From: Cladopsammia gracilis
Taxonomy: Eukaryota; Cnidaria; Anthozoa; Scleractinia; Dendrophylliidae
Direction: 5' to 3'
NCBI GenBank assembly: GCA_022457155.1
Contig: JAJGOT010000476.1
Coordinates: 116,001 to 180,000 of the forward strand
Length of the DNA: 64,000 nucleotides
Positions 15,951 through 56,960 of this stretch are shown here, piece after piece. The position numbers and the translations under genes are program-made. A model generated the notes under the pieces. It was given only the letters and a program-made list of their open reading frames with translations, was not told where the DNA came from and ran no database searches. Positions within the stretch are counted from its first letter, which is position 1. The number at the start of each line of letters is the position of its first letter.

Positions 15951-16166
15951 TCAATGCTTAATAAAACTGCAATCCAAGCTGTCATCCAGAACACAAATTG
16001 TTAAATGCCCTGGCGACAAATATGCCATTGATAGGATCACATCAATGGAATTTACAAGAGGAGTTCCCTTTAAATTGCTGAGATTTGGGTTTTCCTCAAA
16101 ACAATCTTTCAAATCTTCTTCAGCATATGATCTGTTGGTGGTATCTACCTCAAAAGTGCTCATGTC
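15951..16166 (-). CDS. Exon 14: C-terminus and stop
   Basis: It encodes DMSTFEVDTTNRSYAEEDLK and ends DDSLDCSFIKH at TGA 15951-15953. The acceptor is TTTGTACAG in phase 0. No domain is recognised. Confidence 0.75.
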   Translation of the reverse strand, partial: DMSTFEVDTTNRSYAEEDLKDCFEENPNLSNLKGTPLVNSIDVILSMAYLSPGHLTICVLDDSLDCSFIKH

Positions 16167-16663: not shown

Positions 16664-16694
<31 letters not shown>

Positions 16695-19600
16695 TAGTGG
16701 CTAGTAACAGATTTGAATTCACTAGCCAAAATAAATGTCTACTAGCCAAAGTGGGGGTGGGGATAGGACTGGGTAGGGGGAGACAATAACGTGTCACACT
16801 GGTTAAGATGAAAAAAACTCCAAGACTTGGAAACACAGCTTGATCATATTTTTTAGTTTTCTTCATAAATCTCATACTAACACCTTCGAACCTACTAAAC
16901 ATAATTACGGAAAAACGTCGAAAAGATAAGACTACCCTAACACTTTACAAACGTCCTAACGTACAGGAAAACATTGAGAAGATTAGGCTAACAACTTAGT
17001 TTACGAAAAGACGAATGTAAGAAACAACATTGAGAAGATAAGACTCACAACTTACGAAAACACGAATGTAAGAAACAACATTGAGAAGATAAGACTAACA
17101 ACTTACGAACGTACGAATGTGCAGGAAAACAACGAGAAGATAAGGCTAACAACTTACGAACGCAGAATGTAAGAAACAACATTAAGAAGATAAGACTAAT
17201 AACTTACGAAAATAACACTGTTCGAACGTACGAACTTACGGAGTGAGTGAGAAGGTAAGGTTAACACCTTACGAACCTACGAACGTACGGAAAAACATTG
17301 AGAAGATAAGACTAACTAACACCTTAGGAACGAATAACATACGAATGTACATGCAGGAAAACAGTGAAATGTAAGACTAACGCCTTAACGAAAGTACAGA
17401 GAAACATAATTTTCAGTTCGGTTCCGTTACGTTTCACGATTTTTACTAGCCCAAATGGCTAGTGAAAGCAAAATTCCACTAGCCAAAACTGAATTTTTAC
17501 TAGACTTTGGCTAGTTGGCTACCGTTAAGAGCCAGCATGGCCCTGAGGGCTGTAATGGCACACAAGCTCCCCTCACACATCAAGGCATTGCATGAGCACC
17601 AGGGAATCTATTTGCCTTTTGTTTTGGGAGGGATAAAAAAGACATTTGGCAAAGGACAAAGACAGCAGATCATATAATCAAGAAAATTAAACTCTGTTCT
17701 TATCTGCCACTAAAATATTTGGCGGAAGAATCTGAAGTCAAATAGTGTTTAAGTTTAAAAAATATCCCAGCTTATCCCTAAAAAAATATATGGGAAAACA
17801 GAAAAAACAACATAATGAGCTTTACAAGCTCAAGTTCAAATTGTCAAGATTGGATGCCCCTGATTATAATTAGTGAAAACTACTAAACTGATTTTTTTTT
17901 TATTGGGTCTAAAGGATGATTTGCTGACCTGGTTTCCTGTTAATCCCAGCACACTTAGAAGATTTATGACCAGTTCCCTGTCATTCTGGATCTCAAGTAC
18001 TACTGGGCCATAAACAATACTGATGCAGGGCCTCAGCTGGCATTTGACATCATATCCTTGTCTAATGAAGTCCATGAGGTCAACATATGAATTTTGGACA
18101 ATTTCTTCGTCATCGCAAAGAATCTGAAGGTGCTTTGGCTGAGCGCCACTTGGAAGATTACCTACAAAATAGTAAAAGAAAACACTTATTTTTACATGAT
18201 TTTATGATTTCTCTTTTCAACCTCAATAGGTCCCAACTTTAGTGGTAGACAATCTTTTGTACAATATACCGTAAACACTTGTGTATAAACCACACTCGTA
18301 TATAAACTGCACCCCCAAATTTGAAGCTTGATTTCAGGGGTAAAAAAGGAAGCAATATGACGTTTAATTTCTTTTTTGTACTTTATGGTTTAAGCTTATA
18401 AACAATTTATGAATATAAATTTCCCCGGAGCTTATTTTCCAGTGTGTACATGTTTACAAGTCAGACTGGGGTATATAAGTTGACCCTATACGGCTCTGAA
18501 ATTTATATTTTGTTGATTTACAGTGTATTATATATTAAATTTCAACCAGTAGTAAATGGTCAGGTATACAGCTGTTTCGAGAAAGGTTGTCGGAAAAAAG
18601 CGCAAAAGTGCACGCGACAATCCCGAAAAATAATATGGGATATGATCAATGAGTTTTAATAAGTCAAATAAATACATGAAGCCCGCGATGCCTCGTCCGT
18701 ATAGGGACGATCTTAGATGGCGGGCCATTGAGATAAATGAGTTTTTAGGATATAGAATGGATGACTACCCACAATACCTTTCTGGATTGTCGCGTGCACT
18801 TTTACGCTTTTTTCCGGCAATCTTTCTCGAAACAGCTGTATATAAGACTTAGATAAATCACTGGCTTCATTGTGGAACAACCTTCATTAATTTTACAAAA
18901 CATTCAATAGTAAACAACGTGGTTTGCAGGAACGATGACTGAATGAAAGGAGTAACTCTTCTCCATGTCGGATATCTTCTTATCTTGTTTAAAATAAATC
19001 ATAAAACTATCTTGCGCATGCGCATGAGTTTTGGCTGCTTGGAGCCTCTTGTTTTTAAACAAGTCTTGGAAAATTTTTAGTCTATATTTTGCATTTCATT
19101 TTTAGTACGACAAGTGAAAAAAGTCATTTTTTGAAGGGTCTCAACTACTTTGGGTGCCCATAGTATTTAATATGTACCTTTAAGCTTGTCAAAGAGCTTC
19201 TTCTGGAAGTCCACAAGTGTGAGTGGAAACACATCAACTGTGATTCTTTTACTGCTGCCAGTGGCTGATTTGAACATGATCTCATCGTGCAAGTTTTCTT
19301 CATTGTAGTATGCCAAGATCGTCTCATCTGAATACAAGGATCGAATGCGCGGACTTTGCCTCAACCCTTTAGCTTTTGATGCAGCCAACTTTACATGCTT
19401 GGAAATGAAAACTTCTAAGTTAGCAGCTGAAATGTAACCCACACTTTTTGCTTGGGCCTTGAATGTGTCACAGTAAGAACAACTTGGCTTCTTTTTTGCA
19501 ACGGGGCAAGAATGTGCACCACGCAAACCACGAATGATGTACTCCGTCAAAAAACTGTTGCCATGTTTCTTTGCATAGGATTCCTGTTGACTTAATGAAG

Positions 19601-22600
19601 ATGACCATTGCCGCACTGTGAAGTGTTCTGCTGGAGACTTACAAACCACATTTCCATCTAAAGTATCAAAATCAGTACATTGTTCTGCCTCTGTGAAAAT
19701 AAGATCTTCATGATCACTGGCCTTGCAGTCTCCACTATCATCAAGACTGCTGCAGAGTGATTCCAGTGGAAGTTGTCGAGGTGCTTCTGTTTCTTCTGCT
19801 GGGTGATGAGACTTGTGAACAAGGAAAGCTTCATTTTCAAGATGTTCGGAAGCAATCTTTCCATCTGCATAACAACAATCTAAAATAATCAAGAATTCAC
19901 TGACATTTTCTTTGAGTGAGTGCAGGTGTCCCTTCAACTCAGCTTCTGTAAGGACATCCTTCCCTGATGAACATATCAAATTACCATTTTGATCACTGTG
20001 ACCAGAAAAGTAAAAGTACAAGAAAACATCTTTCTTTCCCTGCACTTCTAGATCTTGCTTTAATTCAAGCAGATTTTGTCTGATCTTTGCCGCTTGTGAC
20101 ACGTCAGAGGACGATGGTTTAATACAATACATGTGATCTCTCCTAAAAAAAAAATAAATGAAACAAACATGAATAGTGTTAGTGGACATTGTTTACTGAA
20201 GTGTATTGATTCTCCTAACACTTAACAGTAGCCTTGAACACAATTTATTTCATAAAAAAATATAGTTCAACAATAGATACCAAAAGAAACCCAATCTGAG
20301 AAACCATTTTTCATTAAAATGACAAAAACCCATCTCAGTAGCATTAACCACACCCCAGTGCAATTGTAAAAGTAATTACAACTTCAGATCTGTTAATGAT
20401 CATCTTTGCTCAATATATTGGTTGGCTGTTTATGAGAAGTCTACAGGCGTGCGTTTCTCAAAACTCCCGAAAGCTATTTTTTAACTGTAGTTTCTAACGA
20501 AAGGCGTTGAAGTTTTTAGCCCACAAATCAGCTAAAGTTGTGTAGTAAACGCAACATTTTATTGCTTAGCTTTCAAAATCAACAAAAACCGAATCTTTAT
20601 TGGTAAACATTCTCACGTAACACAGCTTTTCGGGTCCGAAAAGTTTTCGGGTCTTTTGAGAAACGGGCGCCAGAGCTACAGGTGTTACAGGGATTCTGAC
20701 AGGGTGCGCGGGTGCGGGACCGCACAATTCCTAAAAATCCGCACAATCCCGCACGATACTGAAATATTTGCTTAAAATTTTAATTAAATCAGGTATTTCT
20801 ATTGATTACCAAGATTTCGAGAAACGTTTAGGCTATTTTCAGCCCATTTTCCTTCCAAACAATCGAGAAATCCCTCGCTTTCTTCGAAGAGCTCGAGCGA
20901 TCGATATAAAAACAACAAGGCGTTCTCTTCGCCGTCCTGGAAACTAGTCTAAGTTTTACTTCTGTCTGACTTCCTACCGAATTTTTAGCGTAGCTTTTTA
21001 GCTGTCGTTTTCCAGACATTATGTCGTTTTTCTTAGCAGCCTGTTGATATTTTTTCGAGCGCTATTCGCTTCCTCTTTCAGTTTAATATGTAGGGGACCG
21101 AAGAAGAAACACCGAAGAAATGTACCGTCGCGCCGAAATAAATGCCGGTCACTCTGTCTGAACTATTTTCGCAAAGAACTAATCAAGTTTGCGAATCGAC
21201 AAACAAACTATTAAAGCGCTGGAACTTCGGATTGATAGGAGAAAATTATTAAGTTCTGATCAGAATACTGGATTTGAGTTTTTCAATCAAGTGAAAGACG
21301 TTTTCATTCAGGAAAATGCAAAACAAACATACTATCAAATTACATTTAGCACGCAATTTGCATACATCTCGAGGTTGTGTTTTTGCAGCAAACTAACCTG
21401 CGATCAGGCGCTCTTTTTTTTTCGGAGCGGGAGAGCGCGAGTGCACGAAAGTCGGCGGAAGGGCCCGCTCTCCGCCGACTTTTCCTCCGAAAAAAAAGAA
21501 CGCCTGATCGCAGGTTAGCAGCAAACATTCGAAGAAATTGTGTGGACCTTTTAATGGAAATTATTCACACTACATAAAATGTAGGGGTTTTTCATAAAGG
21601 AACTCGCTCAGGTCGGAAACAAGTAATTTTGAGATGGTATTTCGATTTTACCCGATCGAGTTCATCGTGTCACGCAATGTGATTTTGTTGAGACAAATAA
21701 ACTTTGGTGAAGAAAAACAGCCACAAATTGGCGATTGCTGGGTACATTTTAATCCCCAAAGTAAAACATCTATTTGTATTTTTCATTTATGCAGAATTTC
21801 CTCCCCGTCATATTTTTCTGGCCTGGCTGGAACACTGGTGATTGAATATTTGGTTGATCACAGGATTGGGCAATCCCGCACAATTTCCCGCACAATCGAA
21901 GTTATTTCCCACACAATTTGCCCCAAAACTCCCGCAACCTCGTTCCCAGGGTCCCTGGGAACGAGGTTGAAACTCCCGCACAATTTTAGTTTTTTTCCCG
22001 CACCCTGTCAGAATCACTGGTGTTATAACATTTGTGGCTTTTCTATAATTACTTTTTCATCCAAATATGGTAATTCTGTCAGTTATACGATAAAAAATGC
22101 ACTTTCATTAAAGGAACAAAATAAGGCCAAAATCAGTGGAATCAAAGAAATTTATCTGTTAACCCTTTAATCCCCAAGGGTTTTTGTGTTTTTGAGCGAT
22201 TTCCTGCATACACACGCGCCATAGGCTTTCGTGACTCCATATGTGAAGTTACCGTTGAAAGAGCTGCTGTTCTAAAACACTGAAGGCTCGAGTTTACTGG
22301 AAATGTCATTGTGACATGGTCATTTTGCTTCGTTCGTTCTCAATAAAGGCTTCAATATCATGTTTCTGCGATTTTTGGTAAATTCAAAGCCATTTTTCAT
22401 CTTCAGTAGCTGCCTGATGAGCATCATTAAGCTTGAAGGTAGTTCAGAGTCCACTTTCTCAATGAAACGAGTTAGGCGTTGTACTTCGTTAACGCATTTG
22501 GATAGCTGCTCGTTGAACTGGAAAAATGGCCGCCATGAAACGAAGTAGCCTTGGGACTCGACTCTGGATGAATTTCTCGACCTACCACGGCATATTTTGG

Positions 22601-45000: not shown

Positions 45001-48000
45001 CTTCATCTAGGAAAATGTTTCCTGGCTTTACATCCATGTGTACAATCTCCTGTCTACAATAAACAATACGAACATGACTAGAGGTTACAAATTGTAAGTG
45101 AAATGCTGCGAGTAGTTACTGAGCAGTACTACATGTACATCATAATGTATGCAGGGCAAAAACTTTTTTTCTTTCCACTTGTCCATTAGACAAGTGCCAC
45201 TCAAATTTTGGTTGTCTGAAAGTGAAATTCACTCATCCAAAACAATGAATAAATTAAAAACATGTAGCGGTAAAACAAATTTACAATGTACCGTAAAAAC
45301 TGGCGTATAAGCCACATTTGCCCAACATTTTTGCTCAAAATTGGGGTTGCGGCTTATCCATGGGAATATCGGCAATAGATTATACTTTCCGGTGATATAA
45401 GTTATAAATAAATAAATAAATAAATAACAAATATTTAAACAGGGTATACGTAGCCACTTCAGTTATACAACTGCTATCAACCTTCAAATTGAACATTCTA
45501 TAGCTATTTATTTGAGATACTGTACAAACATGGAGCAAACATTCTTTAACTTTTGATGGTACAGAAAAGTGAAGCGCATGAGTGCAGGCTACCAGTGTAG
45601 CCTCTTGTTACTTATGCGCGTAGCGGCATGAGTTATAAAATGGCCTCGGTTTTTCTTCTTCTTTTTTTTTTTTTGTGTCACGATTTTGCATGCAAATTAA
45701 TGCACGCATATTTTACATTGTGCTCTTCCAGTTCATAGCTTTGCCATTTACACTTCCTGTTTAGTGACTTCCGGCTACTTTCACTTCCGGTAAAACAGCG
45801 TTACTGAAGCGTCACGACAGCGTCTCCTACAACCCTACTTACACAACTAATGTTCACGTTAGGTATATAAAAGACGTAGAAGAATCACTGACTTCATTGT
45901 GGTACAGCCTTCATTTACAAAACATTCAATAGTAAACAACGTGGTTTGCAGGAACGATGACTGAATGAAAGGAGAAACTCTTCTCCATGTCGGACATCTT
46001 CTTATCATGTTTATACATATATATATATATACACTGTATCATAAAACTTTCTTACGCATGCGCATGAGTACAGGCTGCTTGCAGCCTCTTGTTTTATTAT
46101 TATTTTTTTTTGATGTCACATTTGTGCATGCAAATTTATGCACGCATATATTATTACTGACCGGGTCGTCAGGTTACATACAAATTCTACAAAAATGGCT
46201 GCCGCGCTCGGCGTGTGCTTGGTTTTCAAAACCATAGTTTTGTCTTATCAGAGTAATAACACACATTAAAATATTCAAAATGGAAAGAGAAGGCTTTAAA
46301 GAATACTCAGAAGCAGCTGTTGTGAAAAAAAAGGAGAGCTTAAGCGACGAAATCTTGCTTTGTGGAACTTCATACATTTTTCTCAATGCGGGGCTGTTTC
46401 TTTCGAAGAAGCGAAGTTTCAAAGAATCATCAAGCAGCCGAATGAAGCCGAGGTACTTTACCGTAAAATAAGTTAGATTTTACGATGGGAATTTATGTTG
46501 ATATCAATTTGTGATTGACTTTTTGTTTGTGTTCTTAGTTTTGGAGTAATGTTTATAAAACCGGCGTACTCAAATTCAGTCATAATAATACTATAATTAT
46601 GTAAACAAAACAAGACCTAAATTCATAGTTCTAACTTCACACGCGTCGCCTCGCTAAAATTAAAAAATATCCGGGTCGTTTACTGATTTCATTGCTTTTA
46701 AAAGTAGTCTTTTCAAATGCAACGGAAAGAAGTCATGGTTTGGGAAATAAATGATGAGTGTGTATTTCATCGGGAATCAATCAATAAATTAAATATTCAA
46801 AGAGAGTACAGTTGTGCAATCTTATATTACAGACGGTCGCGTACTGTTTTTGAGAATTGCTAAAATTGAAAAATAGCCCTGTCGTTTACTGATTTCATTG
46901 CTTTTAAAAGTAGTCTTTTCAAATGTAACAGAAAGAAGTCACTGTTTGGGAAATATTAGACGAGTGTGGATTTGACCAGGAATCAATAAATCAAATATTC
47001 ACTGTGAGTACAGAAAACCTGTCTTGACGTGTTCTTGTGTGTGTCACGCAAAATTCGTTGAGGGGGAAGGGGTGCGTGACCCATTTAAAATAAACTGTAA
47101 AACTTTCTCATGCAAGCGCATGAGTACAGGCTACCAGTGTAGCATCTTGTTCTTTAAACTTCACTTTGAGTGAAGCTTACATGGATTGTCTATTAACTAT
47201 CAATGTCATCTGGGTCTATGGTTAGTCTAAGGTTCTCGCCCCAGTGCTTCTCAAAATCAGGGCGTTGGGTGATGGACTTATAGGGGAATCTTTGCTGACG
47301 TCATTGTTTACATTTTGCTTCATTAGCATATGAATCTGCATAGAGAAGGCGTCATGCTAAATGCGAATTCACTTCAAAAGTTGAAAGAACTTGTTAAACT
47401 AAGTAATCTGTACAATTTTCAGCTTTTTTCATGCAATATTTAAGGAAATATCTCTGCTATCAAAAACTGCAAAATTGTTCAGTGGCAAAAGCGCTAATGA
47501 GCCAAACATTCTTTGGAAAATTTTGAGCTTTTAATACAGCATTCCGTGTATCTAGTATATCGGGCTCAAATTTTCAGAGAAAGCTAATTGCGCTATGCTC
47601 TTTCAATATTCAGAGTTGACTTTTTCGTAGGTAGGTTAAAAAACGAGGCGCATATGCTAATGAGGCAAAAAAGGTAAACAAAGATTCCCCTATTACTTAA
47701 TACACTCAATACCAATTATAGAAACCTTGAAAACAAATCAGGCCTAATTTAAATGTACCACCTGCCAGTAAGGAAACAGGTATCAAATATTACCTTTAAG
47801 CATTAAGCAATGTTAACTTTTGCGCAGAGTCTTTTAATTAATATTATAGTTTTGTGTAGAATCTTATTAGTTTTTAATTATAATCAATATTGCAATACCA
47901 ACACACAAACCTGACATTTCTTTCATTTTTAACTTCTTTGTGTAAATACTGCAGGGCCCTAGCAGTATGAAGAGCTATCCTTACTCGGTTTTCCCAAGGT

Positions 48001-51000
48001 AACTTTTGCTGTCCTTTTGAATCCTTGTGTAATGCCTTACTTAAGTCACTGTGCATTTTAGGATACATAAGACAGCAGGGTTTTCTATATAGAGAAATCA
48101 GAACCATATTGAGGCTGCATCAATCATAGCATACTTTATTATAAATTAGGGGTGTTAATTTTACTAGGGCAGGCATAATAAAATTATTTGAACAAAACAT
48201 TCAAAAGCTGCATGGCACTTGTGATACAATAAATAATGAAAAAAATAATTTTAAAAAGTGCCAAAGATTTGAAAATATCCCAGACGTTCCGGGCTTCGTT
48301 ATGGTTTTAAATGACATATTCCACTGAAGAAGGGCTAAGCCTGAAACATCTGGGATATTTTCAAATCTTTGCACTTATTAAAATTTACTTTTTCCTTATT
48401 CATTGTAAATTTTACTGTAGGTCTCACAGAGTAGGCCCTGTTATTAAGGTAAAGATGAGTGAGAAGGCATTCAAACAACAACAGCTATGAAGTGAAATGA
48501 CAACGAAAGACAAGAAGATTTCGTGAAATTGCAATTTTGGGATACAGTAGTGCACAAAACTCCAACAACGACACATGCAAAATAACAAGGTTTGAAATTC
48601 AGACTAGGAACATGCAACCCCTCTCCTAACAGGGTATCAGAGTGAAAAGATCCCCCAAACAGGGCCTCAGAGGGGAGAGCCCCCCTCCTGTCTCCCCCCT
48701 TTGTAACTGATGTTTTTACCCTGTTTATATAAAGTTATGTATGCATGTAAACTATATGTAACAGGGCCTCAGAGGGGAGATACCTTCTAACAGGGCCTCA
48801 GAGGGGAGAGACCCCCCCTAACATGGCCTCAGTCGTCACAATCCGTCAGCATATTTCACCCCCTCTCAGACCATCGTGTCTTGATTTTTTCTAAGTCTCT
48901 CACGAACTGACTTTTCTTTGAGACGGGTCGACTATTGCCATGACAGGTTGTCACGATCCGTATTTCACCCCCTCTCAGACCATGTCGTGTATTTTTCCTT
49001 AGTCTCTCACCCATTTTATGAGAGATACTGTTCTTGGCAAACTGCAGGATTCAGAATAGGCAGCACAATTGTGCAGTGTATCACTCGCAACATGTTTTAA
49101 CTTTATTTTATTTTATGAAATATAAAGCTTTATATGGGAACTTCAACAGTCGTTTTAAAAAGGGACTAATTTTGAGTTCAAACAAACTAAAATTGTTTTG
49201 CTTCACTAACCTGGTGTACCTTGTGTGGTATTTGATGTTAGTTTTGTCTTCTGACCATTATTTCCGGTTTTATTCAAAATTGAACTTCAACGTGTTAACA
49301 AGTGGCAAGGCAAGAATTAATTCAGGATTCATAAAAATTAATGAAATTAAAAAAAAAACATGTCACGAGTGACACACTACGCGATTGGGCTGCCTTTGGA
49401 TTCATCTGGACACAGCACAAAACAATCTGAGTAACAGCAGAAGGAAATGGCAGGAAATCAAGGTCATGTATTATTTTAAGTAACAATCCGTGTAAGAAGT
49501 AGGCAACCCAAATCCACGGAATGCAGAAAGGTGTGAATTGTGCTATTGTTGAAACCGTCCACCTCATTGGCTAAAACATGAAAATCGACCATAACTTCAT
49601 CAGGCAGTGCATTTTATTTATCTCTAGTTTACTAATTGATTCCGTTTTAGTGGAAACTATATATTGTGATTTTTAATGCAACAAAAATTCTATGTGGGGA
49701 ACATGGAAAATTAGAAGTCTTTCTTGGCCATTGTTTTGGAGTCTCACGATTGGATGAAATCTTGTAACACAAAAGAAACATTGCTTTAAAATACAGTTTC
49801 AGTAAATTTTATTTCAAAACCATGTTGTCCATAGGTTGACGTATTCTCAGTACGAAAATCTAAACATTCTTATGTGGGGAAAGCGAAATGCATCGGAACA
49901 ATAGAGAATTGCCTACTTCTTACACGGATTGTTACTTAATATTCCAGGTCAGTTTACCACTTTATTTGTGGAGGTGTGCATGATAAAGGGTGGGGACCTA
50001 TTTACAGTTTTATGCCCAGGAAGGAAGAGTAGAAGGAGCTAAAATAAAATTAAATAGACAGAAATAATAACTCACCCCTTCTCTTCACTGAATGCATACA
50101 GGGGCATCAGGTGGGGATGTTTTATGTAACCAACTCGTTTCTCCTGCAAAACATATTATTTTGTATATAATGATCAAAATTTGGGCATGATATATTTCTG
50201 AAAGGAATGCCACATCAAAGCATGCATCCTGAGTGAAAGCACAAACAGTAAAACTGTGTTGCATTGTTAGTAAGGGCCTGGTTGCATTAGGGAAATTTTG
50301 ATCAAATTTGTGTTTGTTTAAGAAAAAATCTGTCATCACATCAAGTTTCCTAATGCGACCGGTGTTTCGCAAATTTGAAAAAAAAATGGAAATTCTGACT
50401 AAACTTCAAAGACACCGTAGTGTATGGGTGCGGCAGGCCGATTTGACCCAGATATAGAGGATAATCAGAGAAAAGTTGTGTAATACAGCTGGATATTTTA
50501 TGGGTCAGTTTTTAACCCGTAAATATATGCGCATGCGTAATGAACGGGTTATCGGTAACGGCGACAGATATGCAAATGAGTCACTCGCTCACTCCTTCCA
50601 TCAGCTGTAAACTTTGTGACGTAAAAATGCTTTGTTACGAATGCATTTTGTAACAAGAACAGCGTGAATCCAGCGATAACAATAACTAAATTGGTGTAAA
50701 TGAATATAAACAACAATAAGCTTAAAGATGTTTCGCATTTGGAGTCTTAATGGATCTAAAAGGAATTTTCAACTGAGACACGCGTTTTGATGGTTATCTA
50801 ACTTCAAGTAATAAAATTTATCCCATTTGAAGTCAGTGGTCACGGTGGTCGAGTGGTATAAAGCGCGGACTTTCAGCCGAAAGGCCCAGGTTCGAATCTC
50901 ACTCGGGCCGTTCTATTTTTTTTTTTTTTTCTTCTTCGGACGGAACATTATGAAAGTGATGTATTGCATTTTTATTTTTTGCGTTTGTCAAAAATCCTTA

Positions 51001-54000
51001 CCTTTTATTTAAAAATATATATATATTGAACCGTGACAGAGTGAAAACATAAGCTTACCGCAATATTACGTTACGCTAGCATTTCAAATTCACGGGTTCG
51101 CTCTAAGGAGCCTTTGATTATTTTTTCTGAGGTTTTACGTGAGAAAAAAAGAAACACCGATGAATAAAAATGACTAGCTGTATTACACAACTTTTCACTA
51201 TCAATTAGTCCATGTTTTTGCAATTGTTTTCTGTACTGCGTACTTAGAAGAGTGTAATATCATATCATATTTGCCGATATCAACAACAACAACAATGATT
51301 TATTTTTCAAATAATAAAATGGAGACCGTGCAAAAAATCAAGAATACGACACGGCTTCACGAAAAAATCAAGACTCCAAGACGTAGAGAACCGCGCAAAA
51401 CTAAGAGTGTGAGTCCCATGAAAGTCAACACTGAATTCTTTTGCAAGACCCGAGACACCCCATTCACCACCTATTCACTGTTGTTTAAGAAGTGAACATT
51501 CAGATTTATACAGGGCTTCTGATAGGGTGCGATAAAAAAATGAAAATTATGCGATTTTTTTCAAGGCAAATTATGCGATAAGAAAGGAATATTATGCAGA
51601 AAATTATGCAAATTATGCAATTTTTTCTGGAGCATTTTTATGTATGTTTTATTTATTTTATTTATTTAAATACATAAAATAAATAAAACATATATAAAAA
51701 TGCTCCAGGAGGTTTCAGGGAAGAAAACCACTTTTATGCCGTTCAAACAACAATTACAACATAAAGGAATATTTATATTAATTTAGCATTTTGCAATTCA
51801 AAACAGTCCAGTCTAGATGCTTTTCCACCACACACTTCCATAGATCGTCTATCACAACGTTGCAGGATGAACCAGGGCTCGAAATTAAAAAAACAATCAA
51901 TCAAAATTTGCGAGTAATTCCTAAAAAGTTAGTCGCAAGTTCGAAAATTTTAGTTGCCAAAAAAATCTAACTACTACTGAGTATAACTCTAGTTATTTGC
52001 GGGTTGCTACTATATTTTGTTATATTATTTGAAAACTAAATCGTTGTTGTTGTTGGACTGTCGGAACCGGAAATGAGAAACGAGAAATTTCTGAGAAAGT
52101 CTGAAAAAGTGTGCCCATGATACACTTCTTGGAAACTGCATTAATGGAGCAGGAAATCAACGATTAAGTCACACAACATTTAACGTGAATTTCGCAGGAT
52201 TTTTCGGACAAAATTACAACTACCAGTTACAAGTGAGACACAAGACTGTTGAATATAATTCCTTTATTAGCTAGGCCGTAAAACAGTCACAAAATTGTGA
52301 CTAATAGACAAATGTTAGTTGCAAAAGCAAAATCTTAAGTCGCCAATGCGCCCGATACAGGCGCAATTTCAAGCCAAACAGAACAGACAACCATCATCCA
52401 CGTGAAAAGTACCTTTTGGGTATTTTCTTGCCCTCTCTTTTTCAGTTATATTTACTGGAAGGTGCGAGCTTTTCTTTTCTGTAGAAGACAACTGGCATTT
52501 TAACAACAAACTTATCCATGAAGACCTAATTTTGCATTCGACAAAAGCAGCTACGTGATTTTGCTGTCTTGAAGCTGGACTTTTCCCGGTTTGTTTTCCG
52601 TCGATACTTAGCTATTCTGATTTGTCATTACTCACAGAAAAAGATTGTTTTTGTCATTCCAATAGCCAATGGCTTTAGAATTAAATTTAGTACCAGGCCT
52701 CAACTGCGCAAACACGCAAATAACGCCTTGGAGATCGATCTTTGACGAGATCGAAGGTTGAAACGTTTCTTAAGTTTTTGAAAGGTAAAATCGCCTTGAA
52801 ATAACGTGTATCTTCAGATTTTTTTTAGCTAAAGCAAAAATTTATCGTCTGTTTTGTTCAAATTGTGCAATTTTTCATAAATTATGCGATTTTTTCAAAA
52901 TTATGTAATCGGATGTGATTTGAGGCCAATTATGTGAAATCACACCATCGCGTAATATCAGAAGCCCTGTTTATATTAAGCAGATAAATCTTTATGCATT
53001 TCAACTTGAATCGCTAATTTAAAGACACAGATCGCTAAGTGAAAGGACATCGTAACCTGTACTGTCGTTTATTAGATGTTTGTTAACAAATAAAGACAAA
53101 TATTATGCTAATTGTGAGTAATTTATTTAACTGGTGCAGGGATCTCAATTTTTTACCCATGTATAAGTCGAGGGCGATTTTTTGGACTGAGTTTTAGGTC
53201 ATGAAAGGTCGACTTATAGAGCGTATGCACATGACGTCACGGCGGCCATATTGGTGTACCAAAACAATAGAACGGCGGCCATGTTGGTGTACCAAAACAA
53301 TCCTGTGGGATTTGAACGCTTTTCTTATGTTAACACTTTCTTTTGTTCCAATAAATTTGCATAGCTGCTTGCCACGTGAGTGCATACGCTCTATACACGG
53401 GTAAATACGGTATAATGCTTCTTCCCTGCAGCTTACCCTTTTTAATTGTGCTGCACTGTAAGCTTGTCCAAGATGGGCACCGTACTCTTCTTTGACAACA
53501 ACATCCTGGCCATGAAACTTGCAATTCCCTGCAATGAAGGGATTGCTATTATGTAGTAATTAAAATGTAAGGTTAGAAGAAAAAAATGTCCCATTAGCAA
53601 ATTAATCAGTATATGCAAAGACACTGAGAATTATAATATTATAATAATTATAATCAAGCCACCCTCTCAAATAAGTCCTTCTTTGGATAGTCTGATTTTG
53701 TAATAAACCCCTCTCTAAAAAAACCTTTTATAGTTATGGTTTCTTTTTACTTTTTAGGCCTAAAATTCATGTTTGTAGAACTTATTTTTTTAACAAATTA
53801 AATATTTTTGGTAGTATTAAAAATAGACTCTATAATTAAAAAAAAAATGGACATTCCCCTCCTACCTTCATATACAACTCCAAAGCCTCCTTTTCCCAGT
53901 TCTCTTGCACCATGTTGAAAAAAACTTTTTATACAGTCATAGCTCATCTCAACTGGGCATTTCTGGTGAAAACATTGGGAAGATGTTTCGCTGAAATCAG

Positions 54001-56960
54001 TTGACATGCACCTTTCAACTGGAACTTTCTCCTGTAGTTCAACAAATGTTGGAAGTTGACTAGCACTTGTGGCTGAAGCTGTGCTGGTGCTTATCATTGG
54101 TCTCCCTGATGGAATGTTTTGACTGCCTTTATCTGGTTGATCTCTGCTTTCCACAACTTCATTTGGAACTTTTGTATCTTGATCATTAGTAGATGAATAT
54201 TCCCAATTAGAGAATTCAGACAGTTTTGCTGCACTTTCAAGCAAGTTTACCTGCTCAATTTTATTATTGAGGTGTTCCACTTCTTCTGTAACCTGTTGAC
54301 CAAATGGGATGCTGTCATTCCTGGTATAATGAGGTGGAAGTGAATGATTCCCTGTAGGATCGTATGGAATTGAATAATTCCCTGTAAAATCTTGTGGAAT
54401 TGGATGATTCCCTGTAGGATCGTGTGGAATTGGATAATTCCCTGTTATATCTTGTGGAATTGGAAGATTCCCTGTAGAATCTTGTGGAATTGGATCATTC
54501 CCTGTAGTATCTTGTGGAATTGGATCATTCCCTGTAAAATCCTGTGGAATTGGATAATTCCCTGTAGGATTGTGTGGAATTGGATAATTCCCTGTAGGAC
54601 TGTGTGGAATTGGATGATTTCCTGTAGAATCTTGTAGAATTGGATAATTCCCTATAGAATCTTGTGGAATTGGATGATTCCCTGTAGGATCAGGTGAAGG
54701 GGCAATAAACCCATCATCATCAACATGATTATTGACATTTAATTCCTGTATTCCAGCATCCCTGACTTCACCTGCAAAATTTTGAAGAATAAAAAAATCA
54801 ATACTCAAAACCTAATTAAAGTACCTCTGTGATCAAATTTTTGATTTTCATTTTTTTTACTTTTTCGTGTACAATTAGACTTTCTTACTCATCTTGCCAA
54901 ATTTCAATCCATTATGAACATCCCTGAATTTACAACCGCCATTAATCAACCTTGTTCCAAGGCTTGGTTACGAATGGGAGAAAGTGACATCAAAGACTCA
55001 AACATACCTCACGGGTTGAAATTATAATAACAATAAGTATTGAAAATCACGCGAAAAGCAACAAAAACTTTGGACTTGTTCTCCGTGCAATTTTCTATGC
55101 TGTTTGTTATTATAATTTCAACCCGTGAGGTATGTTTGAGTCTTTGATGTCACTTTCTCCCATTCGCAACCAAGCCTTGGAACAAGTTTGATTAATGGCG
55201 GCCGTAAATTCTCGGAAATAAATGTTTAAATAAAATAACTTCTGATGTTCATAATGGATTGAAATTTGGCAAGACGAGTAAGAATAAAATAAAATAAAAT
55301 AAAATACCTAGACTTGTTGAACAGGAAATAGAAATTCTTCTTAGATTTAGAATTAAGCCAGTGGCACTGGCTAGGTGATTAAAGTGTGTCCCAGTACTGT
55401 GATGACATATAAAATCACCGATATATGGCATTCAAGATATTGGCGATAAAATTTGCCATCATTCACCTGGTGTGCCCATTGCAGCAATTTATATGCTTAT
55501 CGAGGTGAATTGACAAAAAATTTGACCAACCAGATTGTGAGATTTTATATAAAAGCAAAAAAAGCCCTGGAAACAAACGAGGAGCAGGAATACCTAAAAA
55601 TCACGGAAATCACCAAGTGTTTCCGAAGCAGGTAGCAACAAAATTTGCTCAAGCGACTTTTGCTGTCAATTAAAATTGCCACATTTGGTGTATAAAATTG
55701 CCTGGTGTGTTTCTCATTTTAGGTAACCACATTTTCTGGCAATCTCAATGTAAAGGTTTAATTAAGAGACCTTTATTATATTCATAAATAAATGGTGACT
55801 GATTTATTATTCTTGTTTATTTGTTAATATTATTAGCCCCCCTTCACCTTGTAAGGATTAACCCATGTACACTTTAATATTATGGAGTTCTTTCAGCTAT
55901 CAAACAACTCTGCAGAACCAACAATAAAACTGGCTATCAATCCTTCTTAACACAATTTTTCAATTGTAAAAAACAAGAAGACATTGCATACAAAAAATTG
56001 CGGAAATAAAAGGACAAATTCAAATAGATTGAAAAGAAATATATTGAAAATATGCAATGTTACGTATTACAATTTCAGTGTATAAGTTAAATAAGTTAGG
56101 CCTCCTAGTATAGTTTTTACTGTTTTTAAGAGTACAAGTCATTAAAATTAATAGAATTTTTCAATTCAAGCTTTACACAACTTGTGACAAATAAATTTAA
56201 AAAAGAATAGAATACATTGAAATAAACCTGGGCCCTGAAACAACAATGATTCACATTTTTTGAGCTTTATATCATCTTCATTCATTCATTTATTATTTTC
56301 TCCAAACCTTTGCAGATGATAATACATAAGCTTAAATAAAGTCACATCATAAACAAATAGGAAGGAGAGGAGAGGCGCACATCCAGATAAACTGACATTG
56401 TGCCCCTCAAGTTACATCAGTATAAACAAAACACTTGTAATTTTTTAGTATTTTTTTATATATCATCTTTTTATCAGCGGTTGGCTTTTCCTCCTCGGTT
56501 TAATTCTTTAATACCAGGCCATTATTTGCATCTCATTGACTAAGAATGGTCCTGTTGTTTTCATCTGCCTCCACAAGGGATATGATCGAGTATGATCAAA
56601 TATAAGCTTAGTGGCCAGGTATATATATAACTTAATTTTTTGGGCTGCAACAGGCGATCAGTATTGCCATAATAACCTACCTTGTCTTAAATTCTGAAAT
56701 TCCTCGACCTTAGCTTTTAAATCCCTTCTGCCGATCGTTTCAAAGAGTTGTGTTAAAAACTTCAGCTGCTCTTCTACGCCTTCGATAACTTCAGTAATGG
56801 ACACAAAAAGTTGCTTCGCATTGTTGATTTTTTCTAACTTGGATCTAGTCAAATGGTCACCACAAAGATATTTTAAACTTTCAAGTTCATCAGTGATTAA
56901 GTCTTCGGAAATGGAGTGAAGAAGAAGACGAAGTTTGGAAATTTCTCCAGCCTTCTGCAT
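15951..56960 (-). CDS. DED / repeat / kinase / RING-like / caspase-like fusion protein
   Basis: I join 14 minus-strand exons: 56681-56960, 53866-54771, 53437-53528, 50076-50143, 47911-48084, 44836-45053, 39840-39868, 37791-37913, 27163-27250, 26762-26902, 23218-23347, 19178-20142, 17929-18161 and 15951-16166. All junctions are GT-AG and phases agree throughout, giving about 1220 aa. The order is death-effector domain (residues 1-85), thirteen 10-residue repeats (121-250), IRAK/RIPK-like kinase (380-635), Cys/His cluster (651-699), caspase-fold protease (712-1000) and an unassigned C-terminus. DEDs mediate homotypic assembly in cell-death and NF-kB signalling, and C14 proteases cleave after Asp or basic residues. 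A cytosolic sensor, adaptor or executioner role is inference. Joints between modules fall inside exons or at phase-matched introns, which argues against separate genes. The 29-nt exon is the weakest part. I know no named orthologue. Confidence 0.8.
16665..17540. repeat. Inverted-repeat element holding a degenerate tandem array
   Basis: ACTAGCC/GGCTAGT words are inverted at the two ends (about 16685-16750 and 17445-17525). Between them (about 16900-17400) a decayed array repeats TTACGAACGTACGAATG, GGAAAAC and GAGAAGATAAG-like words roughly every 55-60 bp. It lies in the intron between exons 13 and 14. Confidence 0.6.
17929..18161 (-). CDS. Exon 13: C-terminal extension
   Basis: It encodes 78 residues including QPKHLQILCDDEEIVQNSYV and ISIVYGPVVLEIQNDRELVI. 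I do not recognise a domain. The acceptor is TTTTGTAG and the donor GTCAGC, phase 1 in and 0 out. Confidence 0.75.
18565..18844. mobile_element. MITE with TATACAGCTGTTTC termini
   Basis: The left end TATACAGCTGTTTCGAGAAA and the inverted right end TTTCTCGAAACAGCTGTATA match over about 60 bp with few changes. The 280-bp element shares its outermost 13 bases with the MITE at 33193-33499. Confidence 0.8.
18848..19055 (+). repeat. Dispersed repeat, also at 45885-46095
   Basis: The two copies share long near-identical blocks such as TTCAATAGTAAACAACGTGG, CAGGAACGATGACTGAATGA and CGCATGCGCATGAGT. The 45.9-kb copy has an added TA microsatellite. The function is unknown. Confidence 0.8.
19178..20142 (-). 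CDS. Exon 12: caspase-like catalytic p20 and p10 regions
   Basis: The catalytic His is in LYFYFSGHSDQNG (His798). The catalytic Cys is the second one of FLIILDCCYADG (Cys840), giving a DxC motif as in meta- and paracaspases rather than the QACxG of classical caspases. An acidic linker with many Asp (about 884-912) follows, then a p10-like block with GNSFLTEYIIRGLRG (944-958) and SVGYISAANLEVFISKHV. 322 codons. The acceptor is a long T-run plus TTTTAG. Confidence 0.88.
20688..22019. mobile_element. CAGGG-type TIR element with 6-bp TSD
   Basis: The left end is CAGGGATTCTGACAGGGTGC and the right end inverts as CAGTGATTCTGACAGGGTGC. The direct duplication is GTGTTA (20682-20687 and 22020-22025). 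Subterminal CCGCACAATCCCGCAC motifs occur at both ends. A short minus-strand frame inside (20828-21019) is uninformative. It shares its terminus pattern with 51511-52969 and is hAT-like at best. Confidence 0.78.
21394..21517. mobile_element. 124-bp MITE with 9-bp TSD, nested
   Basis: TAACCTGCGATCAGGCGCTC and its inverted copy bound a nearly complete hairpin, flanked by GCAGCAAAC on both sides (21385-21393 and 21518-21526). A 9-bp duplication is typical of Mutator-like elements. It sits inside the 20688-22019 element. Confidence 0.85.
22026..23217. other. Intron sequence, nothing recognised
   Basis: This is part of the intron between exons 11 and 12. Short frames on both strands at 22320-22881 have no recognisable domain, and no repeat boundary could be placed. 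Confidence 0.35.
23218..23347 (-). CDS. Exon 11: caspase-fold beta-1 and helix 1
   Basis: It encodes NTYAVLICGNDSNFPANAAI and ERDLFEFENVLTDSRIIGV. This is the first strand and helix of the C14 fold (pattern yAvlIG...n...D...l...L). The acceptor is ACTTGCAG and the donor GTATGC, phase 1 in and 2 out. Confidence 0.82.
23495..23645. repeat. Imperfect palindrome
   Basis: TGTTGAGTTATATAAGCACT through AATTTTTAAGAACA is matched by its inverted copy ending CTTATATAACTCAATAATGCA. The centre repeats AAGCACTCGCC and TCGTGCTTCTC. Confidence 0.7.
24143..24694 (+). CDS. Coiled-coil ORF, probable retroelement gag-like fragment
   Basis: A frame of about 184 codons starts MSVQRTLRSLPRVNYAALHS. It has a predicted coiled coil around EAQNLRKEINQIKLARQHRE, then DDLRKTASLTKKVDRKLSAL and an acidic Ser/Asp-rich tail. 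Similar N-terminal proteins accompany cnidarian retroelements as far as I recall, but I cannot name the family. The frame ends in a GAAAT microsatellite (about 24679-24720), so the element is probably truncated there. It lies antisense inside the intron between exons 10 and 11. Confidence 0.5.
   Translation: MSVQRTLRSLPRVNYAALHSGSEITPEKANLHEAGESVINGTSADTVSPASVGALEDAPQVDALTLEAQNLRKEINQIKLARQHREKEQEVLQLRNELAELQRDHCEQKVVRPHLENKKPHASSLTVDDLRKTASLTKKVDRKLSALGLKDDGLASSSGDDDQLSSEDEDSEAVRKQRGNEMK
25005..25400 (+). mobile_element. Penelope-like element, 3' fragment
   Basis: The frame encodes SAPCRHPRCRTCDHVIN, a run to KSFTC, a stop, then SGLIYCISCRHY. This is the C-x-x-P-R-C-x-x-C linker and GIY-YIG approach of Penelope-like retroelements, here with an in-frame stop. 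A GAAGAAGGGCAAAGCCCGAAATG hairpin-like 3' motif follows near 25325. Confidence 0.6.
25576..25790 (-). CDS. Unassigned charged ORF in the intron
   Basis: This minus-strand frame reads LNLEEWFEWLEEKRAEYACK then FNELNMKDSKKKTIVNKKFD. The composition looks protein-like, and an acceptor-like CTTTCAG precedes it. No donor gives a phase that fits between exons 10 and 11. It is probably a transposon relic. Confidence 0.3.
25876..25985. repeat. Palindrome
   Basis: GCATTTACGCACTCGTTGGT with TGTATCAGAAATC is inverted as GATTTCTGATACATCACCAA and GCAAATGC. The centre is TTCGCTGCGCTCACTCG. Confidence 0.7.
26762..26902 (-). CDS. Exon 10: RING-like Cys/His cluster
   Basis: It encodes AKYLAVRSSGCNDDHSQDCN, then YFCVTCLAQSRRNPLECPCH. 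Together with exon 9 this gives ligands C651, C654, C670, H674, C678, C682, C685, C696, C698 and H699. The spacing resembles a RING or treble-clef zinc finger. E3 ligase activity is not established. It enters and leaves in phase 1. Confidence 0.8.
26905..27062 (+). repeat. (AAAT)n / AAATAAACT low-complexity tract
   Basis: An A-rich tetranucleotide-like array fills most of the 260-bp intron between exons 9 and 10. Confidence 0.85.
27163..27250 (-). CDS. Exon 9: kinase end and first zinc-ligand pair
   Basis: It encodes IILETRKVAKVSKPKEAGAR and CVSCLLNPP. The same exon closes the last kinase helix and opens the Cys/His module, so the two are one protein. The acceptor is TTTGCTCAG and the donor GTGAGT. 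Confidence 0.8.
27839..28008 (+). repeat. 5' LTR
   Basis: It starts TGTGGTGTATTTGCAGCCTC and ends ACGCTACA. It differs from the 3' LTR by several substitutions and a small indel in the GGTACGCGTACGGTACGAC part, so the insertion is not very recent. Confidence 0.92.
28010..28024 (+). other. Putative primer binding site
   Basis: TGGCGACAAGGAAAA follows the 5' LTR by one base. TGG pairs with a tRNA 3' CCA. The tRNA species is not assigned. Confidence 0.55.
28127..28519 (+). pseudogene. Gypsy gag, N-terminal part, frameshifted
   Basis: The frame shows the retrotransposon gag capsid pattern (YLERLQEYFIAYDI, then FDQLTILLRDHYKP and RFHNASQRPGQSITDFVRDL). No in-frame ATG is seen near its start. The frame is lost at a run of eight A (28468-28475) and ends at 28519. 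The rest of gag continues in the overlapping frame that opens at 28509. Confidence 0.8.
28509..29441 (+). pseudogene. Gypsy gag C-terminus, nucleocapsid and protease
   Basis: It contains two CCHC zinc knuckles (CFRCGLTNHSPDNC and CFNCHQRGHLQSEC). An aspartic protease follows with the active-site motif VDTGAAASI, and the LLGRSWM flap-end motif near the C-terminus. The frame stops at 29439-29441, just before the foreign insertion. Confidence 0.85.
29881..33059 (-). pseudogene. Broken Cys-rich transposon-associated protein, family unnamed
   Basis: In minus-strand order the fragments are: CIFCGTKVEFGEQRKR (about 32.8 kb), ARLLSVHDLPAADAVYHQTC (about 32.65 kb), FLEENDVEQITVSDLMEI (about 32.45 kb), YNVDHNTRTLDVNNTFHGMG (31.75 kb), PIITFDQPLWLKAFNIIQTE (31.3 kb), FLHAVARFDTTSRLYGVG (30.45 kb) and a C-terminal CNCLSDCNTMRCMCRKNGMQC (30.0 kb). 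The last resembles a CXC (tesmin/TSO1-like) Cys-rich fold. Several frameshifts and stops separate them. I recall related uncharacterised proteins repeated in other invertebrate genomes, but no name or activity. Confidence 0.6.
33193..33499. mobile_element. MITE with TATACAGCTGTTTG termini
   Basis: Inverted repeats of about 65 bp start TATACAGCTGTTTGATTAAA, continue AACGTTGTCA and run into CCTACGCGACCAGACCGAAA. They bound about 307 bp. It is nested in the DNA element, which is nested in the Gypsy element. Confidence 0.85.
34344..36767 (+). pseudogene. Gypsy pol: reverse transcriptase, RNase H, integrase
   Basis: The 807-codon frame has no stop. RT spans about residues 40-230, with LPFGISSSPAIWQRF and VIMDD (190-192) in place of the common YxDD. 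RNase H spans about 330-450 (SVDASPYGLGAVI, then a TDHKPL motif). Integrase has an HHCC zinc site (HTGHPG...CGSCQQ, about 554-592) and DDE residues at about 618, 671 (VSDNGPQF) and 707 (GLAERM). The frame ends at IRVRDL, where a short deletion separates it from the last part. It is marked pseudogene because the protease-RT join is destroyed by the insertion. Confidence 0.9.
36768..37048 (+). pseudogene. Gypsy pol C-terminal tail
   Basis: The frame includes SGPKSYVVVLNDGRVWKRHL and DHVRR, the usual end of Gypsy polyproteins. It is shifted from the main pol frame. Compared with related elements, about 20-25 residues seem to be missing at the junction near 36765. Confidence 0.7.
37401..37413 (+). 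other. Polypurine tract
   Basis: AGAAAGGGGGAGA lies immediately before the 3' LTR and is the expected plus-strand primer. Confidence 0.8.
37414..37577 (+). repeat. 3' LTR
   Basis: TGTGGTGAATTTGCAGCCTC to ACGCTACA. It contains AATAAATATTC, a possible poly(A) signal. CATTA follows it. Confidence 0.92.
37791..37913 (-). CDS. Exon 8: kinase C-lobe
   Basis: It encodes GVWPDSGDDRNYTREF and ASIAIDCLKQPNERAKLPDI, then CKRLQ. This is the helix H-I region with the invariant Arg of the N-E-R-A motif. The donor is GTAAAT, phase 0. Confidence 0.82.
38400..38590 (+). pseudogene. hAT-like transposase relic (TTF-type zinc finger)
   Basis: One frame reads LWKNTFGWSDYHVANGEGKM then FCSICRRYDQSATQTLN. This resembles the W-x-Y...GKMFCxxC start of TTF-type zinc-finger/hAT transposase-derived proteins. 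Stops follow directly. It lies in the intron between exons 7 and 8. Confidence 0.45.
39000..39050 (+). repeat. (GA)n microsatellite
   Basis: About 25 GA units, perfect. Confidence 0.95.
39840..39868 (-). CDS. Exon 7: putative 29-nt micro-exon
   Basis: The donor CAG-GTGAGT is strong. The acceptor is ambiguous: TGCAG gives 29 nt and CTACAG gives 41 nt, and both keep the frame. It encodes AVYKNDHAFQ and restores phase 1 to phase 0 between exons 6 and 8. No good polypyrimidine tract precedes it. It leaves the helix F-G region much shorter than in normal kinases. Confidence 0.5.
41455..41758 (-). mobile_element. LINE 3' fragment inserted in the decayed Gypsy
   Basis: The minus-strand frame MYRVKNELCPQYIKDLFVFN and then SLRYLGPLLWSKLDSNIRNA is the C-terminal tail of a non-LTR reverse transcriptase (pattern y.LR...t..gk.s..y.gp.lW..L). 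It interrupts the Gypsy between RT and integrase remnants. Confidence 0.7.
42760..43145 (-). mobile_element. Second LINE 3' fragment
   Basis: In one minus-strand frame, YSLTHIIKAINDWAFLPSEL and KRLMPKTIF match the LINE ORF2 end (a W..LP..i pattern). An AT-rich 3' UTR ends in TTATTATTA at 42760-42775. Confidence 0.6.
44330..44580 (-). repeat. Dispersed repeat, copy 2 (inverted)
   Basis: The reverse complement matches the window-start repeat: CATGGAGCAAAAATTCTTTA, an AGAAAAGTGAGTTTC block, and a GGGTGCGGCTTATC-like part. It contains a GT-AG pair that mimics an exon (44371-44409), but the frame has a stop. Confidence 0.65.
44836..45053 (-). CDS. Exon 6: kinase catalytic loop and activation segment
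   Basis: The catalytic loop reads HMDVKPGN (HRD became HMD; Asp514, Lys516 and Asn519 are kept). The metal-binding motif reads GDPG instead of DFG. The GTEGYLDAYM block replaces the usual GTxGYxxPE. It ends INDIFSFGV in helix F at donor GTATGT, phase 1. Confidence 0.87.
45185..45580 (+). repeat. Dispersed repeat, copy 3
   Basis: This is the closest match to 1-330, with an additional (AAAT)n stretch at about 45405-45430. It lies in the intron between exons 5 and 6. Confidence 0.75.
45885..46095 (+). repeat. Dispersed repeat, second copy of the 18.85-kb unit
   Basis: It shares the CATTCAATAGTAAACAACGT and GGAGAAACTCTTCTCCATGT-type blocks with 18848-19055. A short TA array is inserted at about 46013-46030. 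A related CATGAGTACAGGCT piece recurs near 47110. Confidence 0.8.
46671..47010 (+). repeat. Two diverged direct copies of about 140 bp
   Basis: TCGTTTACTGATTTCATTGC followed by TTTTAAAAGTAGTCTTTTCA occurs at about 46675 and again at about 46872, with similar downstream sequence. Confidence 0.8.
47281..47692. mobile_element. TIR element with TTA duplication
   Basis: TAGGGGAATCTTTG at the left and its inverted copy CAAAGATTCCCCTA at the right, flanked by TTA (47278-47280 and 47693-47695). Subterminal TTAGCATATG/CATATGCTAA are also inverted. 412 bp without an ORF, Harbinger-like by duplication size. Confidence 0.8.
47911..48084 (-). CDS. Exon 5: kinase hinge and helix E
   Basis: It encodes KPCCLMYPKMHSDLSKALH and WENRVRIALHTARALQYLHK, the typical IRAK/RLK hinge-to-helix-E pattern. 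It enters and leaves in phase 2, with donor GTTTGT. Confidence 0.85.
48255..48385. repeat. Inverted-repeat hairpin
   Basis: AAAGATTTGAAAATATCCCA is inverted as TGGGATATTTTCAAATCTTT. The interior has CCACTGAAGAAGGGCTAAGC, similar to Penelope-like 3' ends such as the one near 25325. Confidence 0.75.
48600..48850 (+). repeat. GGGCCTCAGAGGGGAGA-type direct repeats
   Basis: Four to five units of CAGGGCCTCAGAGGGGAGA or close variants occur between 48660 and 48835, irregularly spaced. CACCCCCTCTCAGACCAT occurs twice just downstream (about 48859 and 48966). Confidence 0.65.
49480..49935. mobile_element. TIR element with TTAA duplication
   Basis: GTAACAATCCGTGTAAGAAG and the inverted CTTCTTACACGGATTGTTAC bound 456 bp, flanked by TTAA on each side (49476-49479 and 49936-49939). 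TTAA duplication is used by piggyBac- and Kolobok-like elements. Confidence 0.8.
50076..50143 (-). CDS. Exon 4: kinase helix C
   Basis: It encodes EKRVGYIKHPHLMPLYAFSE in 68 nt. The first Glu (about residue 427) sits where the helix-C Glu that pairs with the Lys is expected. The donor GTGAGT is strong. Confidence 0.8.
50470..51196. mobile_element. TIR element carrying a tRNA-like sequence
   Basis: GAAAAGTTGTGTAATACAGC plus T, a 21-bp perfect inverted repeat, bounds 727 bp. The target duplication is unclear. The tRNA-like segment lies in the middle on the plus strand. Confidence 0.7.
50838..50910 (+). tRNA. tRNA-like pseudogene (Leu/Ser-like)
   Basis: Box A TGGTCGAGTGG and box B GGTTCGAATCT are near consensus, spaced as in a tRNA, and followed by a T-run that could end RNA polymerase III transcription. 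Acceptor and T stems pair poorly (5' GGTCACG against 3' CTCGGGCC), so it is a pseudogene or SINE head rather than a working tRNA. Confidence 0.5.
51511..52969. mobile_element. CAGGG-type TIR element with 6-bp TSD, second member
   Basis: The left end is CAGGGCTTCTGATAGGGTGC. The right end inverts as CAGGGCTTCTGATATTACGC. TTTATA flanks both sides (51505-51510 and 52970-52975). AATTATGCGAT-like words repeat near both ends. It lies in the intron between exons 3 and 4. Confidence 0.8.
53215..53395. mobile_element. Short TIR element (MITE)
   Basis: TATAGAGCGTATGCA is inverted as TGCATACGCTCTATA, 181 bp apart. An internal GGTGTACCAAAACAAT is directly repeated twice. Confidence 0.75.
53437..53528 (-). 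CDS. Exon 3: kinase beta-3 strand with catalytic Lys
   Basis: It encodes GNCKFHGQDVVVKEEYG, with the VVVK Lys at about residue 408, and ends SAAQLKR. The acceptor is TTCATTGCAG and the donor GTAAGC, phase 1 in and 0 out. Confidence 0.82.
53866..54771 (-). CDS. Exon 2: decapeptide repeats and kinase glycine loop
   Basis: This 302-codon exon runs from acceptor TTTTGCAG to donor GTAGGA. It begins with an acidic stretch, then thirteen tandem decapeptides, then a Ser/Thr/Gln-rich linker. It ends in the nucleotide-binding loop GKGGFGVVYE (residues 386-395), preceded by FFQHGARELG. This one exon physically links the repeats to the kinase. Confidence 0.88.
54302..54691 (-). repeat. Thirteen tandem 30-bp units coding a decapeptide
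   Basis: The consensus unit is DPTGNHPIPQ. TGN and IP are nearly invariant, and the last three units at the downstream end are the most diverged. Proline-rich, Asn-rich decapeptides like these are probably extended and flexible, acting as a spacer between DED and kinase. The copy number is likely to vary between individuals. Confidence 0.9.
54882..55288. repeat. Large inverted repeat in intron 1
   Basis: The left arm TTTCTTACTCATCTTGCCAA through CCGCCATTAATCAACC and CAAGGCTTGGTTACGAATGG is matched by the inverted right arm over roughly 150 bp with few differences. The innermost parts, GAAATTATAATAACAA and its inverse, leave a loop of under 60 bases. In the pre-mRNA it would form a long hairpin. 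An (AAAAT)n tract follows at 55289-55310. Confidence 0.85.
55311..56680. other. Rest of intron 1, no gene recognised
   Basis: AT-rich sequence with short frames only. A 60-codon plus-strand frame at 55453-55635 has no domain. Confidence 0.4.
56681..56960 (-). CDS. Exon 1: death-effector domain
   Basis: The first ATG at 56958-56960 starts MQKAGEISKLRLLLHSISED; the frame is open a little further upstream without another ATG. A helical core LITDELESLKYLC follows, and near the end FETIGRRDLKAKVEEF carries the DED RxDL motif. About 93 codons, leaving in phase 1 at donor GTAGGT. Confidence 0.85.

Follow-up and report, generated by a model that had tools for sequence, protein, structure and literature searches.

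Gene model and conservation of the predicted chain

We analysed a window of 64,000 nucleotides from the stony coral Cladopsammia gracilis (contig JAJGOT010000476.1, positions 116,001 to 180,000), and all coordinates below count from its first letter. Open reading frames and splice borders on the minus strand join into a chain of 14 exons running from an ATG at 56960 to the final stop base at 15951. All internal borders carry an AG acceptor or a GT donor, and the phases agree throughout, as in a preliminary description of the window made from the letters alone, whose estimate of about 1220 codons lies close to the 1254 codons of the re-derived chain. Two forms of 1245 or 1254 residues arise from a splice choice at exons 5 and 6. 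The longer form is preferred because the homologous Stylophora sequence EVKNERCVRQEIVHMD favours exon 5 at 48084-47911 with exon 6 at 45053-44836 over the shorter 47934/45049 pair. The exons and neighbouring features are as follows.

Exon 1, 56681..56960, minus strand: start codon and death effector domain (DED, residues 11-89), with the RxDL-type motif RRDL at 78
Exon 2, 53866..54771, minus strand: low-complexity linker, decapeptide repeats, HQKCPVEMSY, kinase glycine loop
Tandem array within exon 2, 54334..54691, minus strand: 30-base unit, 11.9 copies, xxPTGNxPIP-like decapeptides
Exon 3, 53437..53528, minus strand: kinase, VVVK lysine K408
Exon 4, 50076..50143, minus strand: kinase, helix C glutamate E427; exon start EKRVGYIKHPHLMPLYAF
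Exon 5, 47911..48084, minus strand: kinase, longer form (Stylophora support)
Exon 6, 44836..45053, minus strand: kinase catalytic loop HMDVKPGN (D514, N519) and DPG (D532)
Exon 7, 40088..40218, minus strand: kinase C-lobe
Exon 8, 37791..37913, minus strand: end of the kinase profile match
Exon 9, 27163..27250, minus strand: post-kinase link, then CVSC at 685 as the first Cys pair of the Cys/His cluster
Exon 10, 26762..26902, minus strand: remainder of the Cys/His cluster (C-x7-C-x3-C-x2-C-x10-C-x2-H)
Exon 11, 23218..23347, minus strand: presumed first strand and helix of the C14 fold (TYAVLICG)
Exon 12, 19178..20142, minus strand: C14 protease core with His832 (FSGHSD) and Cys874 (LDCC); variable acidic linker with D946-G947; p10-like SSSLSQQES...SFLT...GLRGA; beginning of the C-terminal region
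Exon 13, 17929..18161, minus strand: C-terminal region, no family match
Exon 14, 15951..16166, minus strand: C-terminal region and stop codon
Between exons 6 and 7, 41762-42181, minus strand (that of the gene): reverse-transcriptase fragment below the family cut-off
Within intron 8, 34338-36764, plus strand: 809-residue retroelement frame with reverse transcriptase, RNase H and integrase domains
Downstream of the gene, 11555-12613, plus strand: 353-residue open frame with a methyl-CpG binding domain

Mapping of Pfam models on the 1245-residue form places a DED at residues 11-89 with 61.6 bits, well beyond its cut-off of 35.9, a Pkinase domain at 383-651 (90.3 bits, cut-off 31.7) and a Peptidase_C14 domain at 791-985, the last by a modest margin (23.8 bits, cut-off 21.4). 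The profile searches suggested in the preliminary description thus give matches above cut-off for these three models, while its fourth, RING, finds none in the Cys/His piece. For the last 208 residues, the C-terminal region, no Pfam model matches at E <= 10. Statements on fold are based on sequence profiles.

A homologue search of the full chain covered 5.8 billion proteins, with 7997 candidates scored and 31 proteins listed. Among the latter, only one covers most of the chain, the remaining 30 reaching at most 22%. This protein, an uncharacterised product of Stylophora pistillata (LOC111337538 isoform X3, 1324 aa, our P0001), matches 76% of the query at 57% identity. Its Pfam matches to DED, kinase and C14 all exceed the cut-offs and follow one another as in the window. 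Each of exons 1-14 aligns to it, with identities of 46, 28, 52, 82, 78, 79, 50, 59, 57, 72, 65, 60, 60 and 44%, respectively; the lowest value belongs to the linker exon 2, and the other exons lie between 44 and 82%. The two proteins share a DED, a kinase, a Cys/His cluster, a C14 domain and a C-terminal region in that order, and differ in the linker repeats and in a DAG motif where the window has DPG. Since a separately annotated protein of another species shares it, the domain order goes beyond chance, although the Stylophora protein is itself a predicted isoform and might in principle be a chimera made by gene prediction. The name LOC111337538 is not mentioned in the literature searched, and a homologue search with residues 720-1324 of this protein returned only the protein itself (6111 candidates).

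The genome around the window (877.8 Mb in 1469 contigs) gives a concordant picture. With the Stylophora protein as query (35 of 701 candidates scored), ten collinear matches fall on the contig of the window, and only kinase stretches are found elsewhere, 25 of them at 27-36% identity. A distant relative of the protease (P0060) has exon 12 of the window as its sole match. For the Stylophora DED the best match is exon 1 at 73.6 bits, the next of 28 scoring 39.1 bits. The alignment and the genome matches agree, and the order of DED, kinase and protease is therefore common to the two species. The joining of these modules and the Cys/His cluster in one chain, as first described, and the recurrence of the same order in another cnidarian protein, suggested there as a check, are both borne out. 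In the whole genome, the DED family has 89 matches and Peptidase_C14 has 64, several on common contigs; on two of these (C1131 and C1175) DED and C14 matches lie a few kb apart, as in DED-caspases.

DED, linker, kinase and Cys/His cluster

The RxDL motif of DEDs reads RRDL in the window and RFDL in Stylophora. The decapeptide spacer of the preliminary description is the tandem array of exon 2, which also holds the glycine loop, so that repeats and kinase start are tied within one exon as proposed. In Stylophora the array is replaced by other sequence, which indicates that the linker changes fast; HQKCPVEMSY, also in exon 2, is identical there save for one residue. Caspase-8/10 and the coral DED-caspases likewise carry DED and C14 protease on one chain, and we know of no kinase in them. 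They also differ from the chain described here in having two DEDs, according to the accessible text of PMC4715348.

In the kinase, the catalytic residues K408, E427, D514, N519 and D532 are kept. The HRD motif reads HMD, which we take to make this a non-RD kinase, a type with frequent links to immunity, and DFG is replaced by DPG in the window and by DAG in Stylophora. Owing to these two replacements, it is not certain that the kinase is active. Comparison of the Stylophora kinase with solved structures ranks plant receptor kinases at the top, with up to 99 bits (BAK1), against 69 bits for IRAK4 and 53 bits for RIPK4, the only RIPK among the best 60 of 1441 matches. Judged by these scores, the kinase appears RLK/Pelle/IRAK-like rather than RIPK-like, so that from the original "IRAK/RIPK-like" label the IRAK half stands and the RIPK half is dropped.

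IRAK4/Pelle and the plant receptor-like kinases are thus the closest solved structures among these matches, and IRAKs too join a death-fold domain to a kinase of the RLK/Pelle type. The chain in the window differs in having a DED instead of a death domain, the HMD and DPG motifs, and a fused protease. Kinase and death-fold modules are also fused in a second cnidarian case, Anemone Novel Gene 3, which combines a kinase, a death domain and a TIR domain and, in the available part of the source, has TIR and Roc/COR where the window's chain has its protease (PMC5094078).

The Cys/His cluster has eight positions common to the window and Stylophora, with the spacing C-x2-C-x15-C-x3/7-C-x3-C-x2-C-x10-C-x2-H, of which positions 4 and 8 depart from a classical RING. 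The 92-residue piece matches no Pfam family at E <= 10, RING included, and a classical RING was considered and rejected. From the RING-like zinc-type cluster described previously, the cluster itself remains and the likeness to RING reduces to ligand spacing. Similarly, exon 9 does contain the first Cys pair, and its proposed share in the kinase end is backed weakly: in the 1245-residue form, the Pfam kinase match stops at residue 651, short of the exon 8-9 border by four residues, and the last kinase helix may run across that border.

Bacterial likeness of the protease

Using a two-sequence profile of the protease and C-terminus, we collected 29 further frames of 284-420 residues and 35-81% identity (7999 candidates scored), which look like exon 12 in relatives. 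Together with the window they form a set of 30 sequences, in all of which His832 (GHSD), Cys873 and Cys874 (LDCC) are identical; the Peptidase_C14 model matches 29 of them at E <= 0.01. The invariant His/Cys dyad and the profile score above cut-off place the window's protease in the Peptidase C14 superfamily. Judged against the DxC motif of paracaspases, Cys874 is likely the nucleophile. In the otherwise variable linker, D946 and G947 are each kept in 28/30 sequences, and we propose Asp946-Gly947 as a candidate processing site.

The active-site motifs SGHSD and LDCC are not the SHG and QACRG of canonical caspases. We compared the protease with bacterial C14 proteins, with a model of EACC1-associated caspases, and with eight canonical caspases and a paracaspase-like fragment of the same genome. 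A pattern scan of prokaryote genomes reduced 67 pattern stretches to ten loci in Myxococcota, Deltaproteobacteria, Bdellovibrionales and Proteobacteria. These were chosen by patterns of the p20 half, so the p10 test and the unpicked frames are the independent parts of the comparison. The p10-half profile gives each of the ten bacterial proteins 7.2-16.1 bits, and no score among the eight canonical caspases exceeds 1.5 bits; the weakest bacterial score is barely above the best of 950 shuffles (6.9 bits). In reverse, the bacterial profile gives 23.4-46.7 bits on 31/31 exon-12 sequences and at most 2.9 bits on the canonical caspases listed, seven of the eight.

A broader sample consists of 24 C14 matches from four of those bacterial genomes, four of them being previously picked proteins. 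With the full exon-12 profile, 18 score above the best of 990 shuffles (14/20 without the four earlier picks); the p20 part alone retrieves 15/24 and the p10 part 14/24 (10/20 without the same four). None of the eight canonical caspases exceeds the shuffles with the full, p20 or p10 profile, and the paracaspase-like fragment scores -0.8 bits with the exon-12 profile. In profile-profile comparison, the exon-12 set joins the bacterial set at 98.5% probability (E 2.6e-15) and the canonical caspases at 0.15%. These low values do not disprove kinship with caspases, because the bacterial set itself joins the canonical caspases at 3.2% only, the method being blunt at such depth. A 14-sequence exon-12 set likewise has no match to a four-sequence caspase set (0.2%) or to the paracaspase-like fragment (0.6%). 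Against the PDB, the exon-12 profile has no match at E <= 10 and a longer profile (A2) has one chance match at E 0.44. The 32 pattern stretches taken from viral contigs include no coding sequence for a relative.

The NCBIfam model of EACC1-associated caspases (NF047832) weakly matches 21 of the 30 exon-12 sequences at E <= 0.01 and none of four canonical caspases at E <= 1. The scores shown, 15.4-34.2 bits, are far from its cut-off of 140, and exon 12 of the window, taken alone, is outside the 21, its longer piece reaching 22.7 bits. Over the genome, the model scores 27.7-39.5 bits at three sites outside the window, of which two are paracaspase-like, and at E <= 0.001 the window itself is absent. 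The model is thus not specific to this gene. Two paracaspase-like C14 frames with the motifs YFAGHGF and LLDICRK (L016, L017) lie on one contig of the same genome (C1072).

The best profile match found for the protease is thus with C14 proteins of Myxococcota and related bacteria, which carry SGH[SAG]D and SS..ES..SFFTH..SGLRGAAD-like motifs; they differ in reading D[SA]C, in those read, where the corals have DCC, and the coral linker is long and variable. By sequence, the protease resembles bacterial C14 proteases, a likeness that concerns this domain alone and in place of which the preliminary description had drawn an analogy to caspase-8. A caspase-8-like protease was discarded on the active-site motifs and on the failure of all eight canonical caspases to rise above shuffles. 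That the domain was acquired from bacteria is possible.

The same domain could also be a strongly diverged animal caspase or paracaspase-like protease, its bacterial likeness reflecting an ancestral state or convergence. Its gene is an animal one that also encodes a DED, as that of caspase-8 does; the patterns used to select the first ten bacterial loci favour likeness; the failed profile comparison has little force against kinship when the bacterial set does scarcely better with canonical caspases; on the eukaryotic side, the profiles compared were those of canonical caspases and a paracaspase-like fragment; and the EACC1 model prefers other places in the genome. Even so, we consider such an origin unlikely, given the separation of bacterial from canonical proteins by the p10 half, the counts of C14 matches above shuffles with the paracaspase-like fragment also failing, and the gap between the two profile-comparison probabilities. 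A different question is whether the protein works as an enzyme at all, or as a scaffold that acts by binding, with kinase, protease or both inactive. The altered DFG and HRD motifs and the weak C14 score speak for a scaffold, whereas the retained Lys, Glu, Asp, Asn and Asp of the kinase and a protease His and Cys that are unchanged in all 30 exon-12 sequences, down to 36% identity to that of the window, speak for catalysis, and we regard such a scaffold as doubtful, if somewhat less so than an animal origin of the protease.

Lastly, the chain might be two adjacent genes, DED-kinase (exons 1-8) and zinc-C14 (exons 9-14), misjoined both in the preliminary description and in the Stylophora gene prediction. 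Intron 8 spans 10.5 kb and holds the retroelement frame on the plus strand, and the kinase profile match stops just short of the exon 8-9 border. Against this, the phases match over that border, the Stylophora protein continues through the junction, and the window's chain has no Met between residues 618 and 788, so that a separate protease gene would lose the presumed first protease strand unless a further exon gave a start. The last argument is limited to the window, because Stylophora has a Met at 791, inside the Cys/His cluster and ahead of its protease. On balance, two misjoined genes appear very improbable.

Proposed mechanism and significance for corals

Our preferred reading, to which we assign a probability of about 55%, is that DED, repeat linker, RLK/Pelle/IRAK-type kinase, Cys/His cluster, bacterial-like C14 protease and C-terminal region form one intact 14-exon gene, whose product works as a kinase-protease clustered by its DED. 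An upstream DED protein would nucleate DED contacts and cluster the chains, whose non-RD kinases could then autophosphorylate in trans. The C14 domains brought close in this way would undergo self-processing within the acidic linker of variable sequence, with Asp946-Gly947 as a possible site, and the active protease would cut targets in a death or immune response. Such a fused chain would fix the stoichiometry of kinase to protease, a ratio that other animals achieve by bringing individual proteins together. Vertebrate DED adaptors, death-fold kinases and caspases exist as individual proteins that assemble when needed. The fusion may have a role in cell death or immunity, as the preliminary description suggested.

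On a more tentative note, held at clearly less than even odds, a stony-coral lineage may have taken up a bacterial-type, myxobacterial-like C14 protease and joined it covalently to DED and IRAK-type kinase modules. The resulting single-chain, DED-gated machine would contain its own processing site and serve death or immunity alongside the canonical caspases. In the accessible portion of their paper, Kaur and co-workers describe bacterial systems that combine adaptor domains with kinases and caspase-like proteases, as well as DED fusions expanded in cnidarians (PMC8195603). By analogy, the systems described there make the mechanism plausible, without being evidence for the protein of the window.

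The DED, kinase and C14 parts are all of known kinds, and their combination is not named in titles or abstract starts among the matches listed, a search that mostly did not cover subscription literature, so that an earlier report may exist. The word "kinase" is absent from the accessible main text of two coral caspase papers.

Taken together, the predicted architecture and its conservation suggest that corals may carry on a single polypeptide the parts that in other animals come together as individual proteins. Conserved and equipped with a bacterial-like protease, such a chain would let one ask in nature whether a covalent link can stand in for assembly. The fusion could add a second protease route to the stress and death responses of corals, relevant to bleaching and disease, and could illustrate concretely the idea that the death pathways of animals borrowed from bacterial conflict systems.
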